The position numbers were made by a program, and so were the translations under genes. A stretch of 64,000 bases of DNA. Source: Streptomyces sp. NBC_01283. GTDB lineage: Bacteria; Actinomycetota; Actinomycetes; Streptomycetales; Streptomycetaceae. Every line of letters begins with the position of its first letter. Positions within the stretch are counted from its first letter, which is position 1. Below, piece after piece: positions 4,357 through 15,103 of the stretch. Below the pieces are notes generated by a model. That model saw only the letters and a program-made list of their open reading frames with translations, did not search any database and was not told where the DNA came from. The DNA is taken from contig NZ_CP108430.1 in the NCBI RefSeq assembly GCF_041435335.1, forward strand, positions 4,495,501 to 4,559,500. Reading direction: 5' to 3'.

Positions 4357-6954
<2,598 letters not shown>

Positions 6955-7124: not shown

Positions 7125-7553
7125 ATGGCCATGGACCCTCACCACCCGACCCCGGCGTATCTCAGCTTCTGGCGTGAACGGCATCTGTGCACGCTGACGA
7201 CCCCGCGACCCGACGGCACCCCGCACGTGGTTCCCGTAGGTGTCACCTACGACCCGGAGACGGGTGTGGCCCGCGTCCTCGCAAACAAGTCGAGCGCGAA
7301 GGTCGCCCACGTGCTCGCGGCGACGGACGGGGAGGGTCCCGGGGCGCGGGTGGCGGTCTGCCAGGTCGAGGGGCGGCGCTGGGCGACGCTGGAGGGGCAC
7401 GCGCGCATCCGTACGGAGGAGGCCGGGATCGCGGTGGCGATGCGGCGCTACGAGGAGCGGTACGGGAGGGTGCCGAGGCCGAATCCGGACCGCGTGCTGA
7501 TCGAGATCACGCTGACGCGGGCGATGGGCACGAAGTCCTTGCTGGAGGCATAG
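7125..7553 (+). CDS. PNPOx-fold flavin/F420-type protein
   Basis: A 142-residue single-domain protein of the pyridoxamine-5'-phosphate oxidase-like split barrel (FRERHLCTLTT-like start, then DGTPHVVPVGV, ANKSSAKVAHV and GRRWATLEGHARI). The family binds FMN or F420 at a dimer interface and includes many actinobacterial F420-dependent reductases. The sequence alone does not fix the cofactor. The start is ATG 7125 or ATG 7131; the first sits 7 bases after TAGGTT, which suggests a leaderless message. It is divergent from clpB across the HAIR site and ends at a strong hairpin. Confidence 0.8.
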   Translation: MAMDPHHPTPAYLSFWRERHLCTLTTPRPDGTPHVVPVGVTYDPETGVARVLANKSSAKVAHVLAATDGEGPGARVAVCQVEGRRWATLEGHARIRTEEAGIAVAMRRYEERYGRVPRPNPDRVLIEITLTRAMGTKSLLEA

Positions 7554-7679: not shown

Positions 7680-8057
7680 TCAGGCGCTGCGGGGGGTGGC
7701 TGTAATGGTTCTTGTAGTGGTGGAACTCTGCTGGTCCTGCCGCTCGCGGCCGACGCCGGGCTGCCCCGGCTCACCGACCAGCTGGTGGTCACGCCGGTCG
7801 AGATTGACGAAGACCATCCCGTACCGAATGGCACACCGCACGGGCTGTGGGGCGCCCCGCGGCTTGCGGAGGCACCGGTAGGCCCGGATCTCCTCCTCGT
7901 CGTCACGGGTGACGACCACCGGCTCCCCGAGGAGCGTGACCATCAGCGAGTCGCCGGCGTGGGGTATCGCGGTGGCGAGATCGATGAAGTGCCAGCCGGA
8001 ACGGTAGGCGGTGGCCATTTCTCGGCGGAAGGTGCGGTCGTCGGGCGGGGTGCTCAT
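7680..8057 (-). CDS. Rieske-like protein lacking cluster ligands
   Basis: Starts at ATG 8057, overlapping the TGA of the peptide gene as ATGA, so the two are coupled; 125 residues. Residues about 20-50 (YRSGWHFIDLATAIPHAGD, then LLGEPVVVTRD) follow the N-terminus of ring-hydroxylating oxygenase alpha subunits, and MVFVNLD matches the strand after the Rieske domain. Between them the normal C-x-H...C-x2-H ligands are gone: the first site reads CLRKPRGA instead of CRHRGA and the second Cys-His pair is missing. It therefore should not bind a 2Fe-2S centre. It might be a scaffold or peptide-binding remnant. The C-terminal 35 residues look unstructured. Confidence 0.65.
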   Translation of the reverse strand: MSTPPDDRTFRREMATAYRSGWHFIDLATAIPHAGDSLMVTLLGEPVVVTRDDEEEIRAYRCLRKPRGAPQPVRCAIRYGMVFVNLDRRDHQLVGEPGQPGVGRERQDQQSSTTTRTITATPRSA

Positions 8058-8248
8058 GCGTCGCCCCCTGCCGGCGCCACGCCCCACACGAGATCTCCGG
8101 GCAAGGCCGAAACGGAAGGAGCCTTCGCGGGCTTGGCCCCCCAGACAAGATCACACGTACTCACCGTGCCCAGGGCAAGCCCTGCGGAGAAGGTGGTGAC
8201 AAGCACCGAGCGAAGCATGCGCTTAAACATGGTCGGCTTCGTCCTCAC
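8054..8248 (-). CDS. Secreted peptide with two DLVWG motifs
   Basis: From GTG 8248 (GAGGA nine bases upstream) the product is 64 residues; ATG 8230, also with a GAGGA upstream, would give 58. A basic start (RTKPTMFKRMLRS) and a hydrophobic run (VLVTTFSAGLALGTVST) form a signal peptide or leader. The mature part is short and repeats the motif DLVWG-x-x-PA twice (residues 33-37 and 52-56), with one Cys just before the first copy. It is coupled by ATGA to the Rieske-like gene and divergent from two LuxR regulators. It could be a signalling peptide or a modified-peptide precursor. No known family recognised. Confidence 0.6.
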   Translation of the reverse strand: MRTKPTMFKRMLRSVLVTTFSAGLALGTVSTCDLVWGAKPAKAPSVSALPGDLVWGVAPAGGDA

Positions 8249-8313
8249 TTGGTAGGTTCCTCTCCCCCGGCTCAACAAGACGATGTCTCAATTCAGCACG
8301 TCAAAGCCACAGG

Positions 8314-9345
8314 GTGGATGCATCATGTTCCTGCACGTTCAGGACCCTGGGGGGTGGAGATTTGCTTACAACAGGCGCAATACCGACACATCCTCACCCC
8401 TCAACCCCACTTTGTGTCGAGGGATCAGAGTTGTACGCCACTGCTCTGCGTACAGGACGCCTGACGCGGGCCGAGGCCGAGAAGGTTCCCTGCCTAGTGG
8501 AATCCGGGCTCATGCACCCGGACCCCGACGACGCCGACTGGCTGCGTCCCGTGCCGCCGTCCGCCGCGCTCGCCCAGCGGCTGCACCCCATCGAGCGCGA
8601 GATACAGGAACGCCGAAGGATCGCCGTTGAACTAACCGATGTCTTCGAGCCATTCATGGCGATCACCTCACAGATGGAACCCACCACTCAGGGGTTCACC
8701 GTTCTGGAGGGAGACGCCCGGATCGGCGCAGTCATCGAACGGGCCACGGCGGAGTGCCGTTCCGAGATCCTCACGATCCAGCCCGGCGGCGGACGCAGCG
8801 AGAACGTGCTCAACCTGGCGATGAAACGCGGGCAGACCGTCATCGACCGGGGCATCACCATGCGCACCCTCTACCAGCACACCGTCAGGCACAGTCAGGG
8901 AACGTTGGCCTACGCGGCACGGATGGCCCAGGGGAACGTCGCCGTACGGACCCTGGAGGAGCTGGTCGACCGACTGATGATCTTCGATCGCACGGTCGCC
9001 CTGATTCCCGCGCACACCCGGCAGGACGCGGCTCTGGAGCTTCGTCACCCTGGCCTGATCGAGTACCTGGCCAAGGTCTTCGAGCAACTCTGGAGCCGGG
9101 CGACCCCCCTGGTCGACGACGTGCCGTACGCCCCACCCACCAACGGCATCACCGGCGTACAGCGCACGATCGCCAGAATGCTCATCGAGGGCCACGTCGA
9201 CGAGGCAATCGCCCGCAGGCTCGGCATGAACGTCCGCACCTGCCGCGCCCACATCGCTAAGATCGCCGCCGCCCTGGGCAGCGGGAGCCGAGCTCAACTC
9301 GGCTATCTGATCGCCCAGTCCGGAATCCTCGACAAGGATCACTGA
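8314..9345 (+). CDS. LuxR-type regulator with PLD/TrmB-like sensor region
   Basis: Up to 343 residues. The C-terminal 65 residues (NGITGVQRTIARMLIEGHVDEAIARRLGMNV, split here only for description as the scaffold and recognition helices) form a LuxR HTH. The central part (TIQPGGG, then MRTLYQHTVRHS and FDRTVALIP) matches the phospholipase-D/TrmB-like ligand domain found in a group of Streptomyces LuxR proteins. No receiver domain or ATPase is present. The start is uncertain: GTG 8314 gives the full frame, but TTG 8431 has a better site (GAGGGA, 6 bases). Probably the regulator of the divergent peptide/Rieske-like pair. Confidence 0.75.
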   Translation: MDASCSCTFRTLGGGDLLTTGAIPTHPHPSTPLCVEGSELYATALRTGRLTRAEAEKVPCLVESGLMHPDPDDADWLRPVPPSAALAQRLHPIEREIQERRRIAVELTDVFEPFMAITSQMEPTTQGFTVLEGDARIGAVIERATAECRSEILTIQPGGGRSENVLNLAMKRGQTVIDRGITMRTLYQHTVRHSQGTLAYAARMAQGNVAVRTLEELVDRLMIFDRTVALIPAHTRQDAALELRHPGLIEYLAKVFEQLWSRATPLVDDVPYAPPTNGITGVQRTIARMLIEGHVDEAIARRLGMNVRTCRAHIAKIAAALGSGSRAQLGYLIAQSGILDKDH

Positions 9346-9368
9346 ACTCGGCGATGGAATGAGTCGAC

Positions 9369-10106
9369 GTGACGACAGAACCCCGTGCCCACGAGGCCGA
9401 TGAAGCCGCCACCACCACGGAGCTGAGGGGAATCGCCCGCATCAACGAAGCCGTCGGCCGGGCCGAGGCGGCGGCCTCGCAGGAAGTGCTCACCATCCAG
9501 CCCGGCGGATCCCGCCCTCCCGACATCCTGGAAGCCGCCCTTCCGCGCGAGCAGGCGCTGCTCACCCGTGGCTGCCGGATGCGGACGCTCTACCAGCACA
9601 CGACGCGTCACTCGCTGCCTGCTCTGGCCCACTTCGAACAGCTCGACGGGGATGTCGAGGTGCGCACCCTCGACGAGGTCACCGAGCGGCTCTTCGTCTT
9701 CGACCGCAAGGTCGCCTTCATCCCCGCGAGCGAGGACCGCAGCCGCGCCCTCGAACTGCGCCACCCCGCCGTGGTCGGCTACCTCGCCACCACCTTCGAC
9801 CGGCTGTGGCGCCTTGCCACCCCCATGTGGCCCCAGTCGGCGCCCCAGCCTGCGGAGAACGGCATCACCACCCGCCAACGCGCCATCGCCGCTTTCCTCA
9901 CCGAGGGGCTGACCGATTCCGAGATCTCCGCGCGTCTGGGCATGAATGTCCGCACCGCACGCGTCCACATAGCCAAACTCGCCGCCATCCTCGGCAGCGA
10001 AAGCCGGGCCCAACTCGGCTATCTCATAGGCCGGTCAGGAATTCTCGACACGGAAGAGACGGAAGAGACGGGGGAGACCGGGGATACGGGGGACGCGGAG
10101 GGCTGA
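9369..10106 (+). CDS. Second LuxR-type regulator, paralogue of the first
   Basis: GTG start at 9369, 23 bases after the preceding stop, so probably co-transcribed. The 245 residues align with the central and C-terminal parts of the preceding regulator (TIQPGGSRPPDILEAA, MRTLYQHTTRHS, FDRKVAFIPAS, NGITTRQRAI, LGMNVRTARVHIAKLA, SRAQLGYLIGRSGILD) but lack its N-terminal 100 residues. After the HTH a tail of Glu/Thr/Gly repeats (TEETEETGETGDTGD) is added. The pair most likely arose by tandem duplication and may form heterodimers or have split functions. Confidence 0.75.
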   Translation: MTTEPRAHEADEAATTTELRGIARINEAVGRAEAAASQEVLTIQPGGSRPPDILEAALPREQALLTRGCRMRTLYQHTTRHSLPALAHFEQLDGDVEVRTLDEVTERLFVFDRKVAFIPASEDRSRALELRHPAVVGYLATTFDRLWRLATPMWPQSAPQPAENGITTRQRAIAAFLTEGLTDSEISARLGMNVRTARVHIAKLAAILGSESRAQLGYLIGRSGILDTEETEETGETGDTGDAEG

Positions 10107-10118
10107 ACCTGCCGCAGG

Positions 10119-10628
10119 TCAGTCGTTCAGGTCCGTCCAGGTGCGCAGCAGGGCCTCGCGGTCCGATGTCTTCGGGGTGCCGCCCTCGTGGCGTCTGCCC
10201 CATTCCGCCATCGCCGCCAGCGTCGTCAGCAGCGTGCCCGCGCCCTGCGTGAGGCGGGACAGGAGGGCGCGGGAGAGCTCGTACTCCGTCTGCGAGTAGC
10301 CCGTGGCCGCCGCCGTGTACACCGTCAGGTCCGTGTCGCCCTCGGCGCCCGAGACCCGCAGCGTCATCGTGGGCGCCTCGTCGCCGCCGCCGAGGCCCAC
10401 CGTCAGCGCCAGGTCCACCAGCACGCCCACGTTGCGCTTCAGGGACTTCACGGGGGCGTCCTCGACCGAAAGGGCGTGGACGTCCTCCCAGGGCCACAGA
10501 CCCGCCTGCTTGTCCCCCAGGGCCACCACTCCCTCCGGAGTGAGCCGCGCCCCCGCCGCGAGGCCCGACGGCTTCGCGCCCACGTACACATCGCCCTCGG
10601 CGATCCAGAAAAGTCCCACCATGGTCAT
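10119..10628 (-). CDS. Conserved hypothetical protein downstream of hspR
   Basis: The start is taken as ATG 10628 (MTMVGLFWIAEGDVYVGAKP), giving 169 residues; ATG 10622 is an alternative. The first half is beta-rich and resembles a PH-like or SseB-like sheet (GVVALGDKQAGLWPWEDVHAL), the second is helical with an alanine-rich stretch. No signal peptide or membrane helix. It follows hspR on the same strand but is cut off from the chaperone operon by a strong terminator. No function assigned. Confidence 0.6.
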   Translation of the reverse strand: MTMVGLFWIAEGDVYVGAKPSGLAAGARLTPEGVVALGDKQAGLWPWEDVHALSVEDAPVKSLKRNVGVLVDLALTVGLGGGDEAPTMTLRVSGAEGDTDLTVYTAAATGYSQTEYELSRALLSRLTQGAGTLLTTLAAMAEWGRRHEGGTPKTSDREALLRTWTDLND

Positions 10629-10693
10629 GGCGAGCCCCCCACTTCCCCAGCATGAAACAAGCAAAGAATCTTCAGGTCGTCACCGCCAACGCA

Positions 10694-10752: not shown

Positions 10753-11217
10753 TTACTGCTCCGACGTCCTCTTAGGACGCCACACCACCAAGGCGCTCGC
10801 CTGCTGCACGTCCTGGTACGGGACCAGGTCGCGGCGGTACGACGCGTGGACCGCGGCCTCGCGCTGCTGCATCGCGGCGGCCGCGCCCTCCACGGCGCTG
10901 GACAGCTCGACCACCCTCGCCTGCAGCGCGGCGACCTGGTTCTCCAGCTCGATGATGCGCTTGATGCCGGCGAGGTTGATGCCCTCCTCCTGCGACAACT
11001 GCTGGACGGTGCGCAGCAGTTCGATGTCGCGGGCGGAATAGCGCCGGCCACGGCCCGCCGTGCGGTCCGGGGAGACCAGACCGAGGCGGTCGTACTGGCG
11101 CAGGGTCTGCGGATGGAGTCCGCTGAGCTGGGCGGCCACGGAGATGACGTAGACCGGCGTCTCGTCAGTCAGTTGGTACGCCCGCCCAAAATTGGACTGT
11201 CGACGACGGCCGTCCAT
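10753..11217 (-). CDS. hspR: Heat-shock repressor HspR
   Basis: A 154-residue MerR-family protein: the helix-turn-helix with its wing covers about residues 22-90 (VYVISVAAQLSGLHPQTLRQ, then DRLGLVSPDRTAGRGRRYS), followed by a dimerising coiled coil. HspR binds HAIR repeats with DnaK as co-repressor and releases them when DnaK is titrated by unfolded protein. Being the last gene of the dnaK operon closes the feedback loop. It begins one base after the dnaJ stop. Expected targets in this window are the HAIR sites at 7067 and 15083. Confidence 0.97.
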   Translation of the reverse strand: MDGRRRQSNFGRAYQLTDETPVYVISVAAQLSGLHPQTLRQYDRLGLVSPDRTAGRGRRYSARDIELLRTVQQLSQEEGINLAGIKRIIELENQVAALQARVVELSSAVEGAAAAMQQREAAVHASYRRDLVPYQDVQQASALVVWRPKRTSEQ

Positions 11218-11218
11218 C

Positions 11219-12427
11219 TCATGCTCCCTTCGCGGCCTGGAACAGTTCTGCCCGCGGATCGTCGTCCGCAGTCGCCTCGCGGTAGCTCTCCAGAGCTTCC
11301 TTCGCCTGGTCGCTCAACGACGTCGGTACGGATACCTCCACCGTCACGAGCAGGTCGCCCCGTGAACCGTCCTTGCGGACCGCGCCCTTGCCCCGCGCCC
11401 GCATCGTACGGCCGTTGGGCGTGCCCGGCGGCAGTTTCAGCGTGACGGGAGGGCCGCCCAGCGTGGGGACCTTGACCTCGCCGCCCAGTGCCGCCTCGGC
11501 GAACGTCACCGGTACCGTCACCGTCAGGTTGTCGCCCTTGCGGCCGAAGACCGGGTGGGTGTCGACGTGCACGACCACGTACAGGTCGCCTGCCGGACCG
11601 CCCCGTTCACCGGGGCCGCCCTTGCCTCGCAGGCGGATGCGCTGGCCGTCCGACACCCCCGCGGGGATGCGGACCTGCATCGTGCGCGACGACTTCGCCC
11701 GGCCCGAGCCCTTGCAGACCTCGCAGGGGTCCTGGGCGATGAGCCCACGCCCCTTGCAGTCCACGCAGGGATCCGTGAGGGAGAAACCGCCGCCGCCTCC
11801 CCGCGTGACCTGGCCCGTGCCGACGCAGGTCGGGCACACGCGCGGTGTGCCGTTCTTGTCGCCGGTGCCGGAACAGGCCTTGCAGGGAGCCTGGGAGGAC
11901 ATCCGGAGCGGGACCGTGGCCCCGTCCACCGCCTCCGTGAAGCTCAGCGTGACCTCGGACTCGATGTCCTGGCCCCGCCGGGGCTGCGTACGCGTGCCCG
12001 CGCCGCCCGCGCCCGTGCCGCCTCGGTTGAACAGGCCCCCGAAGACGTCACCCAGACCGCCCCCGAAGCCGCCGCCCGCGCCGCCCGCTCCACCGCCGCC
12101 CGGGGCGCCGCCTCCGAAGAGGTCGCCCAGGTCGAAGTTGAACGAGCCGCCGCCGCCCGCGCCTCCGGGACCGGCCCTGAAGCCGCCGTTGCCGAAGAGA
12201 GCACGCGCTTCGTCGTACTCCTTGCGCTTCTTGGGGTCCCCGAGGACGTCGTTCGCCTCCGAGATCTCCTTGAAGCGCTCTTCCGCTTTCGCGTTGCCCT
12301 TGTTGGCGTCCGGGTGGTTCTCGCGTGCGAGTTTCCGGTACGCCTTCTTGATCTCGGCTTCGGTGGCGTCCTTGGGGACGCCGAGGACCTTGTAGTAGTC
12401 CTTCTCGATGAAGTCCTTGGTGCTCAT
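11219..12427 (-). CDS. dnaJ: Co-chaperone DnaJ
   Basis: A 402-residue type I J-protein. The J domain carries HPD at 38-40, which stimulates DnaK ATPase. A long Gly-rich linker with GGLF/GDLF motifs spans about 80-145. The zinc domain has all four CxxCxGxG repeats (182-189, 198-205, 221-228, 235-242), followed by the two beta-barrel substrate domains. This copy is the operon-linked DnaJ; Streptomyces usually has another elsewhere. The gap to grpE is 41 bases. Confidence 0.97.
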   Translation of the reverse strand: MSTKDFIEKDYYKVLGVPKDATEAEIKKAYRKLARENHPDANKGNAKAEERFKEISEANDVLGDPKKRKEYDEARALFGNGGFRAGPGGAGGGGSFNFDLGDLFGGGAPGGGGAGGAGGGFGGGLGDVFGGLFNRGGTGAGGAGTRTQPRRGQDIESEVTLSFTEAVDGATVPLRMSSQAPCKACSGTGDKNGTPRVCPTCVGTGQVTRGGGGGFSLTDPCVDCKGRGLIAQDPCEVCKGSGRAKSSRTMQVRIPAGVSDGQRIRLRGKGGPGERGGPAGDLYVVVHVDTHPVFGRKGDNLTVTVPVTFAEAALGGEVKVPTLGGPPVTLKLPPGTPNGRTMRARGKGAVRKDGSRGDLLVTVEVSVPTSLSDQAKEALESYREATADDDPRAELFQAAKGA

Positions 12428-12468
12428 CCCCGACGTCCCTCCTCTCGCTTCACAACAGCTCCGTCATG

Positions 12469-15103
<2,635 letters not shown>

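Follow-up and report, generated by a model that had tools for sequence, protein, structure and literature searches.

A D-x-x-W peptide and its divergent TrmB-like LuxR regulator change together across Streptomyces and probably form a pheromone module

A small cassette in the heat-shock region of Streptomyces sp. NBC_01283 probably encodes a tetrapeptide pheromone and its cytoplasmic receptor, a TrmB-like LuxR protein here called Lux1, with relatives using species-specific variants (pherotypes) of the same signal. The cassette occupies positions 7680-10106 of the window, the 64,000-nucleotide stretch that was analysed (contig NZ_CP108430.1, positions 4,495,501 to 4,559,500, forward strand). Signalling is strongly supported because the peptide motif and Lux1 change in correlated fashion; since it is the likely ligand-binding segment of Lux1 that changed with the motif across the genus, the two look like a species-specific signal and its receptor.

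An earlier note, made from the letters of this DNA, had described a 64-residue peptide with two DLVWG-x-x-PA repeats, an ATGA overlap coupling it to a Rieske-derived protein without cluster ligands, two tandem paralogous LuxR proteins and a heat-shock neighbourhood, and all of these parts were confirmed. The peptide gene (8054-8248, minus strand), the proposed signal precursor, starts with GTG at 8246-8248 and stops at 8054-8056. It encodes 64 residues with a basic N-terminus, a hydrophobic stretch and two D-L-V-W-G units, in the contexts DLVWGAKPA and DLVWGVAPA. The first unit (residues 33-37; 8138-8152, minus strand; GAT CTT GTC TGG GGC) is spelled with codons unlike those of the second (residues 52-56; 8081-8095, minus strand; GAT CTC GTG TGG GGC). 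The GTG start is supported because relatives carry ATG at that codon (ATG at 29 and GTG at 128 of 157 loci), and a conserved Shine-Dalgarno-like sequence lies ahead of it. The stop codon overlaps the start of the Rieske-like gene (7680-8057, minus strand) as ATGA; among 145 unique loci, this junction is a -4 overlap at 68, +1 at 54 and +5 at 14.

A search with the single peptide sequence matched 7 of 61 genomes, the source genome of the window among them, and the Rieske-like gene was matched in 256 of 295 Streptomyces genomes, although 13 of these have weak best hits (E about 1e-17 or higher), which leaves some 243. A motif peptide lies upstream of the Rieske-like gene at each of the 183 Streptomyces loci fetched (160 distinct); 170 of these peptides were called by pattern, all [D/N/E]-x-x-W, and 13 by eye. 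Loci are not equivalent to genomes here, as some genomes were fetched twice, and seven loci (L001-L007) had been found through the peptide itself. The earlier note had made its proposal depend on conservation of the peptide and its neighbourhood in relatives, and peptide, Rieske-like gene and divergent Lux1 occur together at 183 of 183 loci. Most peptides share a leader of the form VRTKPTM..MLRSVL, followed by 1 to 12 copies of D-X1-X2-W, for example DSTW x10, DVGW x7, DSGWG x7, DLSWS x7, DTSWP x2 or a single C-terminal DSKWD. The Asp is near-invariant and the Trp invariant. Copies within one gene are identical in 493 of 503 pairs (132 unique peptides), compared with 449 of 8646 pairs (5%) for the first copies of different genes, and in 328 of the 493 identical pairs the codons differ. 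Matching copies within a gene, different motifs between species and different codons for the same residues point to selection on the peptide. Even within a gene the fifth residue is variable, and in a second genus described below it may be absent, so that the core of the motif is four residues.

One clade (L005, L053, L061, L063, L075 and L077) has a different leader and repeats of GEPSWG, GEPTWE or GEPSWE type, with 12 copies in L005; the usual motif Asp is replaced by Glu, and the Lux1 loop reads EELLTxQPGSGR. In public records, ten close homologues of the peptide are labelled 'hypothetical protein', carry no label or, in one case, are called '5'-nucleotidase'; this last label, on an 80-residue precursor of the family (P0133), looks spurious.

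For the analysis of correlated change, the nearest divergent LuxR gene at each locus was taken as Lux1. The 183 loci gave 170 pattern peptides, 163 Lux1 sequences passing trimming and finally 137 unique pairs, and the association of Lux1 columns with the motif was stratified by overall Lux1 distance. The motif-associated columns cluster in one segment, the strongest being trimmed position 114, which is residue 136 of Lux1. All 77 unique pairs with Ser at X1 have Met at this residue, all 34 with Thr have Val, and all 26 with Leu, Ile or Val at X1 have one of Val, Ile and Leu, never Met. The 20 loci outside this table (13 without a pattern match and 7 whose Lux1 failed trimming) follow the rule as well, two having Ser with Met and 18 having other residues without Met. 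On a tree built from the Rieske protein and from Lux1 minus trimmed positions 100-142, Ser/Thr contrasts coincided with Met versus Val at residue 136 in 17 of 17 phylogenetically independent pairs (sign test, 7.6e-6), and the next best column scored 6. His at X2 is accompanied by Asp at residue 143 (trimmed position 121, in the next loop) in 5 of 5 independent pairs; D versus N at the first motif position gave a single independent pair. The pairing of a bigger ligand residue with a smaller or branched receptor residue is what would be expected for a pocket.

The other genes of the cassette behave differently. Lux3, a paralogue adjacent to Lux1 in relatives, shows Val in 86 of 87 rows (not made unique), independent of X1. 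Lux2 follows no X1 rule in relatives and its loop does not track the peptide, and the Rieske-like protein has no clustered motif-associated columns. Lux2 and Lux3 were therefore rejected as receptors of the D-x-x-W peptide, and the Rieske-like protein as a specificity partner. Of the two dedicated regulators claimed earlier, this leaves Lux1, which tracks the peptide; Lux2 varies in number and follows no rule. As a side observation, Lux3 (EVLTVQPGGIRRE; plus strand, L038-L077) is absent in the window and nearly invariant across Streptomyces. Should the code apply to Lux3, its ligand would be an unchanging D-[T/V/I/L]-G-W signal; no such peptide was seen beside Lux3.

Lux1 (8362-9345, plus strand) probably starts at the TTG at 8362, as judged from relatives with ATG near there, and would then have 327 residues, with a TrmB/PLD-like sensor region and a C-terminal LuxR helix-turn-helix (HTH). 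Lux2 (9369-10106, plus strand; 245 residues) is a shorter paralogue without the TrmB-like N-terminal part, 54% identical to Lux1 over Lux2 residues 17-230, and both proteins carry the PLD/TrmB-like region. In the Pfam scan, GerE and DUF7436-like matches were found: the GerE-like HTH scored 24.3 bits in Lux2, above the cut-off of 23.5, and 20.1 bits in Lux1, just below it. The scan gave no tetratricopeptide repeats (TPR) and, up to E 1, no autoinducer-binding domain. When Lux1 and its relatives were combined into a profile, it matched TrmBL2 (PDB 5box) with E 8.5e-8, the effector region aligning over profile positions 41-238, and DevR, NarL and GerE structures as well. In the structure model of Lux1 (mean predicted local distance difference test, pLDDT, 82.6; predicted template modelling score 0.55), residue 136 is placed on strand 135-140, followed by a loop (141-146) that precedes a helix; a putative N-terminal winged HTH was judged from the helices of the model. 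The peptide-tracking strand and loop correspond to residues 135-146 (E-I136-L-T-I-Q-P-G-G-G-R-S; 8764-8799, plus strand).

The peptide family is not limited to Streptomyces. A class-wide search with Lux1 matched 84 of 197 genomes at E<=1e-8, and in a second actinobacterial genus (f28 g43) a Lux relative was found in 57 of 59 genomes at E<=1e-60. At 56 of 57 loci, a short D-x-x-W peptide with a hydrophobic leader is encoded on the opposite strand, 6-279 bases past the Lux gene; where an alternative hit existed, those with P, E, K, D or R at X1 were disregarded. Control windows of equal size, searched with the same criteria, gave 1 of 57 downstream on the same strand, 0 and 1 of 57 upstream on the two strands, and 3 of 57 at 600-1140 bases downstream. 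A signal-peptidase-like site, by a loose rule, precedes the motif by 0-2 residues in 53 of 56 peptides, the multi-copy peptides are homogeneous (7 of 7), and some motif copies end exactly at the C-terminus (...NDTSW*). In another family of the phylum, a peptide with ...YDTGWD is divergent from its Lux relative. In addition, a distant Lux relative at L277 is accompanied by a secreted-looking peptide that contains DPGWQ twice, a possible further pherotype family.

The intergenic region between the peptide gene and Lux1 is strongly conserved and contains the palindrome TCCTGCACGTTCAGGA (8329-8344), a candidate operator of Lux1. The form TCCTGN6CAGGA is present in 142 of 147 unique intergenic regions, 78-82 bases before the peptide start, and at 148 of the 160 distinct loci; the candidate operator can be written as TCCTGAAC[AG]TGCAGGA. 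Across 21 genomes, the extended 19-base palindrome has six exact sites, all at the peptide-Lux1 locus, and with one mismatch a single site, in G012. Allowing two mismatches gave nine sites versus seven for the reversed control, and no regulon was found in these genomes; 5 of 12 Rieske-carrying Streptomyces genomes lack a site at <=1 mismatch.

Based on these data, we propose the following mechanism. The signal-like segment at the N-terminus would direct export of the precursor, and cleavage would yield short peptides with D-X1-X2-W at their centre, in the window D-L-V-W-G in two copies. The peptide would re-enter the cytoplasm, probably through an oligopeptide importer, and bind Lux1 in the TrmB/PLD-like domain. 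There, residue 136 on strand 135-140 may be the packing partner of X1, and the QPxxxx loop after this strand that of X2. Bound peptide would alter the activity of Lux1 at the divergent promoter, with the palindrome as likely operator, and this change may affect antibiotic production, directly or not. Within each species, the motif copies would stay alike and fit the Lux1 of that species, which would result in pherotypes.

Several observations weigh against this pheromone module or narrow it. Tracking of X2 is diffuse: for states other than His, the associations scatter across trimmed positions 121-131 without a clean column, and Leu, Ile or Val at X1 gave no Lux1 column of their own. In the second genus, Met goes with Ser at X1 in 7 of 10 cases versus 1 of 46 for other residues (Fisher, 3.9e-6, relatedness ignored), the exceptions being DSAW (two loci) and DSGW (one) with Leu and DTSW (one) with Met; the SCO2686-type regulator described below likewise has Leu with Ser at X1 (DSQW). 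A D-x-x-W or N-x-x-W neighbour was clear at 11 of 55 mixed distant Lux loci, eight of them from the second genus (three more, L244, L263 and L270, are borderline), and at 2 of 20 additional loci a D-x-x-W neighbour was found. The palindrome is missing at 12 of the 160 distinct loci, about half of them belonging to the GEPSW clade, and it rises above chance nowhere but at the peptide-Lux1 locus. Neither an importer nor a protease was seen at the locus, and signal peptides were judged from hydropathy only. Seven further loci with Lux relatives in the strain's own genome gave no convincing D-x-x-W neighbour.

The rival explanation that survives best, and that we nevertheless regard as unlikely, is an intracellular pairing without communication: an unreleased precursor would remain in the membrane or cytoplasm and act on Lux1 by direct binding, as an anti-regulator or co-factor. 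The correlated change proves recognition only, and some Streptomyces leaders, read by eye, have no clean AxA site before the motif. On the other hand, the N-terminal segments are hydrophobic in the peptides read, and the loosely defined signal-peptidase-like site stands right before the motif in nearly all peptides of the second genus. Multiple copies, some ending at the C-terminus, suit the release of short peptides, and the diversity between species suits communication.

A second possibility is a ribosomally synthesised and post-translationally modified peptide, in which the Rieske-like partner would assist in hydroxylation or cross-linking of the DLVWG Trp, with the cluster under control of the regulators. 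Translational coupling of the two genes, the near-invariant Asp and invariant Trp, and the Rieske ancestry of the partner speak for it. However, we consider this very improbable in view of the partner itself. It has 125 residues and a conserved tail, ATPRSA, and in 25 of 25 aligned sequences both cluster His are replaced by Arg, with CLR...CAIR or CAVR (C62-L-R64 and C75-A-I-R78) in place of CxH...CxxH. It resembles the Rieske domain of ring-hydroxylating oxygenases in sequence and predicted secondary structure (model pLDDT 68.8) and differs from it in the loss of cluster ligands and catalytic domain: the matches to oxygenase alpha subunits cover the N-terminal Rieske domain alone, and the Pfam Rieske match is weak (E 0.044, below cut-off). 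The protein is highly conserved independent of pherotype. An order-wide search of 147 genomes found it in Streptomyces only, one of five genera, and no short Rieske-like protein turned up in the other genera searched; the second genus, which keeps the peptide family, shows weak Rieske matches in 14 of 59 genomes, all inside long frames of 432-729 residues. The neighbours that recur around the cassette, among those sought, are the Rieske remnant, LuxR genes, PPOX-like gene, clpB and hspR. The sole other enzyme of this shared neighbourhood is the PPOX-like gene, missing at some loci; no modifying enzyme for the precursor is among these recurrent neighbours, other genes in the gaps not having been gone through individually. 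We therefore rejected this reading, as the ligands are missing and the short protein was not found in the second genus. Of the earlier proposal of a signalling or modified-peptide system, the signalling part is favoured by the correlated change of motif and Lux1, and the modified peptide with an oxygenase-like partner is not supported, as the protein lacks cluster ligands and catalytic domain, does not track the motif and was not found as a short protein in the other genera searched. The Rieske-like protein may instead be a cytoplasmic accessory of the Streptomyces version. Of the 39 Streptomyces genomes that lack it, 20 were searched for a Lux1 orthologue and all 20 are without one (best identity 41%), and the module therefore seems to be gained or lost as a unit.

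That slippage or conversion of the DNA made the repeats alike, with the Lux1 association a mere hitch-hiking of linked genes, has next to no probability left: tandem repeats often homogenise and the two genes are adjacent, but the differing codons of most identical repeats, the lack of such a column in the equally linked Lux2, Lux3 and Rieske genes and the 17 of 17 independent Ser/Thr pairs already contradict it.

A link of the proposed pheromone module to antibiotic production is suggested by the counterparts in S. coelicolor. In this species, clpB is SCO3661 and hspR SCO3668 (PMC2631018; clpB also PMC2687793), and a table of LuxR proteins gives 327 residues for SCO3665 and 394 for SCO3666 (PMC3282765). 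Genome G270, one of three among 392 that hold the SCO2686 primer exactly (S. coelicolor type), has tandem LuxR genes whose possible starts give exactly 327 and 394 residues, with Lux1 next. From these protein lengths and the gene order we infer that Lux1 corresponds to SCO3664. In an unbiased screen, SCO3664 insertions are listed in the group with a more than 50-fold increase in actinorhodin, the materials include a complementation plasmid, and SCO2686 is a further down-modulator of actinorhodin (PMC6585502). SCO2686 is itself a Lux1 relative (36% over 318 residues). At the SCO2686-type locus (L388:1483-1669 and 1624-2800), a divergent secreted-looking peptide ends in TDDSQWG. The locus was confirmed via two of three published ArgR boxes (PMC5839063), and these boxes suggest arginine control of that branch. 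In G270, the peptide ends in SDTIWS and Lux1 carries the Val expected from the rule; the calculated mass of DTIWS is 620.28 Da. In an S. coelicolor-type genome, a solute-binding lipoprotein-like frame (L389:2999-4196) was observed between hspR and Lux3.

The cassette is flanked by clpB on one side and hspR-dnaJ-grpE on the other, and this order is kept in relatives. With names assigned from sequence, the clpB gene ends at 4357 (minus strand), and the hspR-, dnaJ- and grpE-like genes occupy 10753-13197 (minus strand). A PPOX-like gene with a flavin/F420 fold (7126-7553, plus strand) sits between clpB and the cassette; it was found in most relatives and not found in some, for example L389 and L390. 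A further gene follows past Lux2 (10119-10664, minus strand).

Taken together, we lean towards a previously undescribed peptide language of actinobacteria, in which TrmB-like LuxR receptors would recognise D-X1-X2-W tetrapeptides, some with one more residue, by a simple code (Ser with Met; larger residues with Val, Leu or Ile). These peptides would define pherotypes in Streptomyces and at least one further genus and would restrain antibiotic production. No description of the D-x-x-W peptide or the Lux1 pairing was found in the open-access literature; preprints and most subscription papers lay outside this search, and the novelty is therefore provisional. Streptomyces are known for small-molecule signals. 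If the module is real, the main antibiotic producers would have a new layer of communication, in the form of a receptor and a peptide pheromone that is diverse and found throughout the genus. Given the residue code, the pairing can be tested directly, using synthetic tetra- or pentapeptides and receptors with single substitutions. Because disruption of SCO3664, the inferred counterpart, raises actinorhodin (PMC6585502), addition or removal of the peptide could be a handle on silent antibiotic pathways.

Among known systems, gamma-butyrolactones are extracellular Streptomyces signals that steer antibiotic production. The BldK-imported oligopeptide is another such signal (PMC11303876). The proposed peptide resembles both in this respect; the BldK signal was considered as a candidate D-x-x-W peptide, and no evidence for a link was found. 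We know of no gene arrangement of the present kind for either of them. Lux1 shares the GerE-type HTH with LuxR-type quorum regulators and differs from them in that no autoinducer-binding domain was among its Pfam matches and the signal would be a peptide. To TrmB and TrmBL2 of archaea it appears related by the PLD-like effector domain and possibly by its N-terminal region; in Lux1, however, it is a peptide that the effector domain tracks, and the C-terminus carries an added LuxR HTH. TrmB proteins are known as sugar sensors, and if our reading is correct, the TrmB effector fold can shift from sugars to peptides. A parallel in organisation is offered by the RRNPP systems of Firmicutes (Rap-Phr, PlcR-PapR, Rgg-SHP, ComR-ComS and AimR-AimP): a small secreted precursor is encoded beside the gene of a cytoplasmic receptor, the signal is short, and species-specific pairs of ligand and receptor change together. 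Lux1 differs in having no TPR match and combining a TrmB/PLD-like sensor with a LuxR HTH instead, and the module is actinobacterial, with as many as twelve copies of a D-x-x-W core in one precursor. As in RRNPP systems, the precursor adjoins the receptor gene, at 183 of 183 Streptomyces Rieske loci and 56 of 57 loci of the second genus, and ligand and receptor residues change together as in pherotypes, apart from the exceptions in the second genus and the SCO2686 type.

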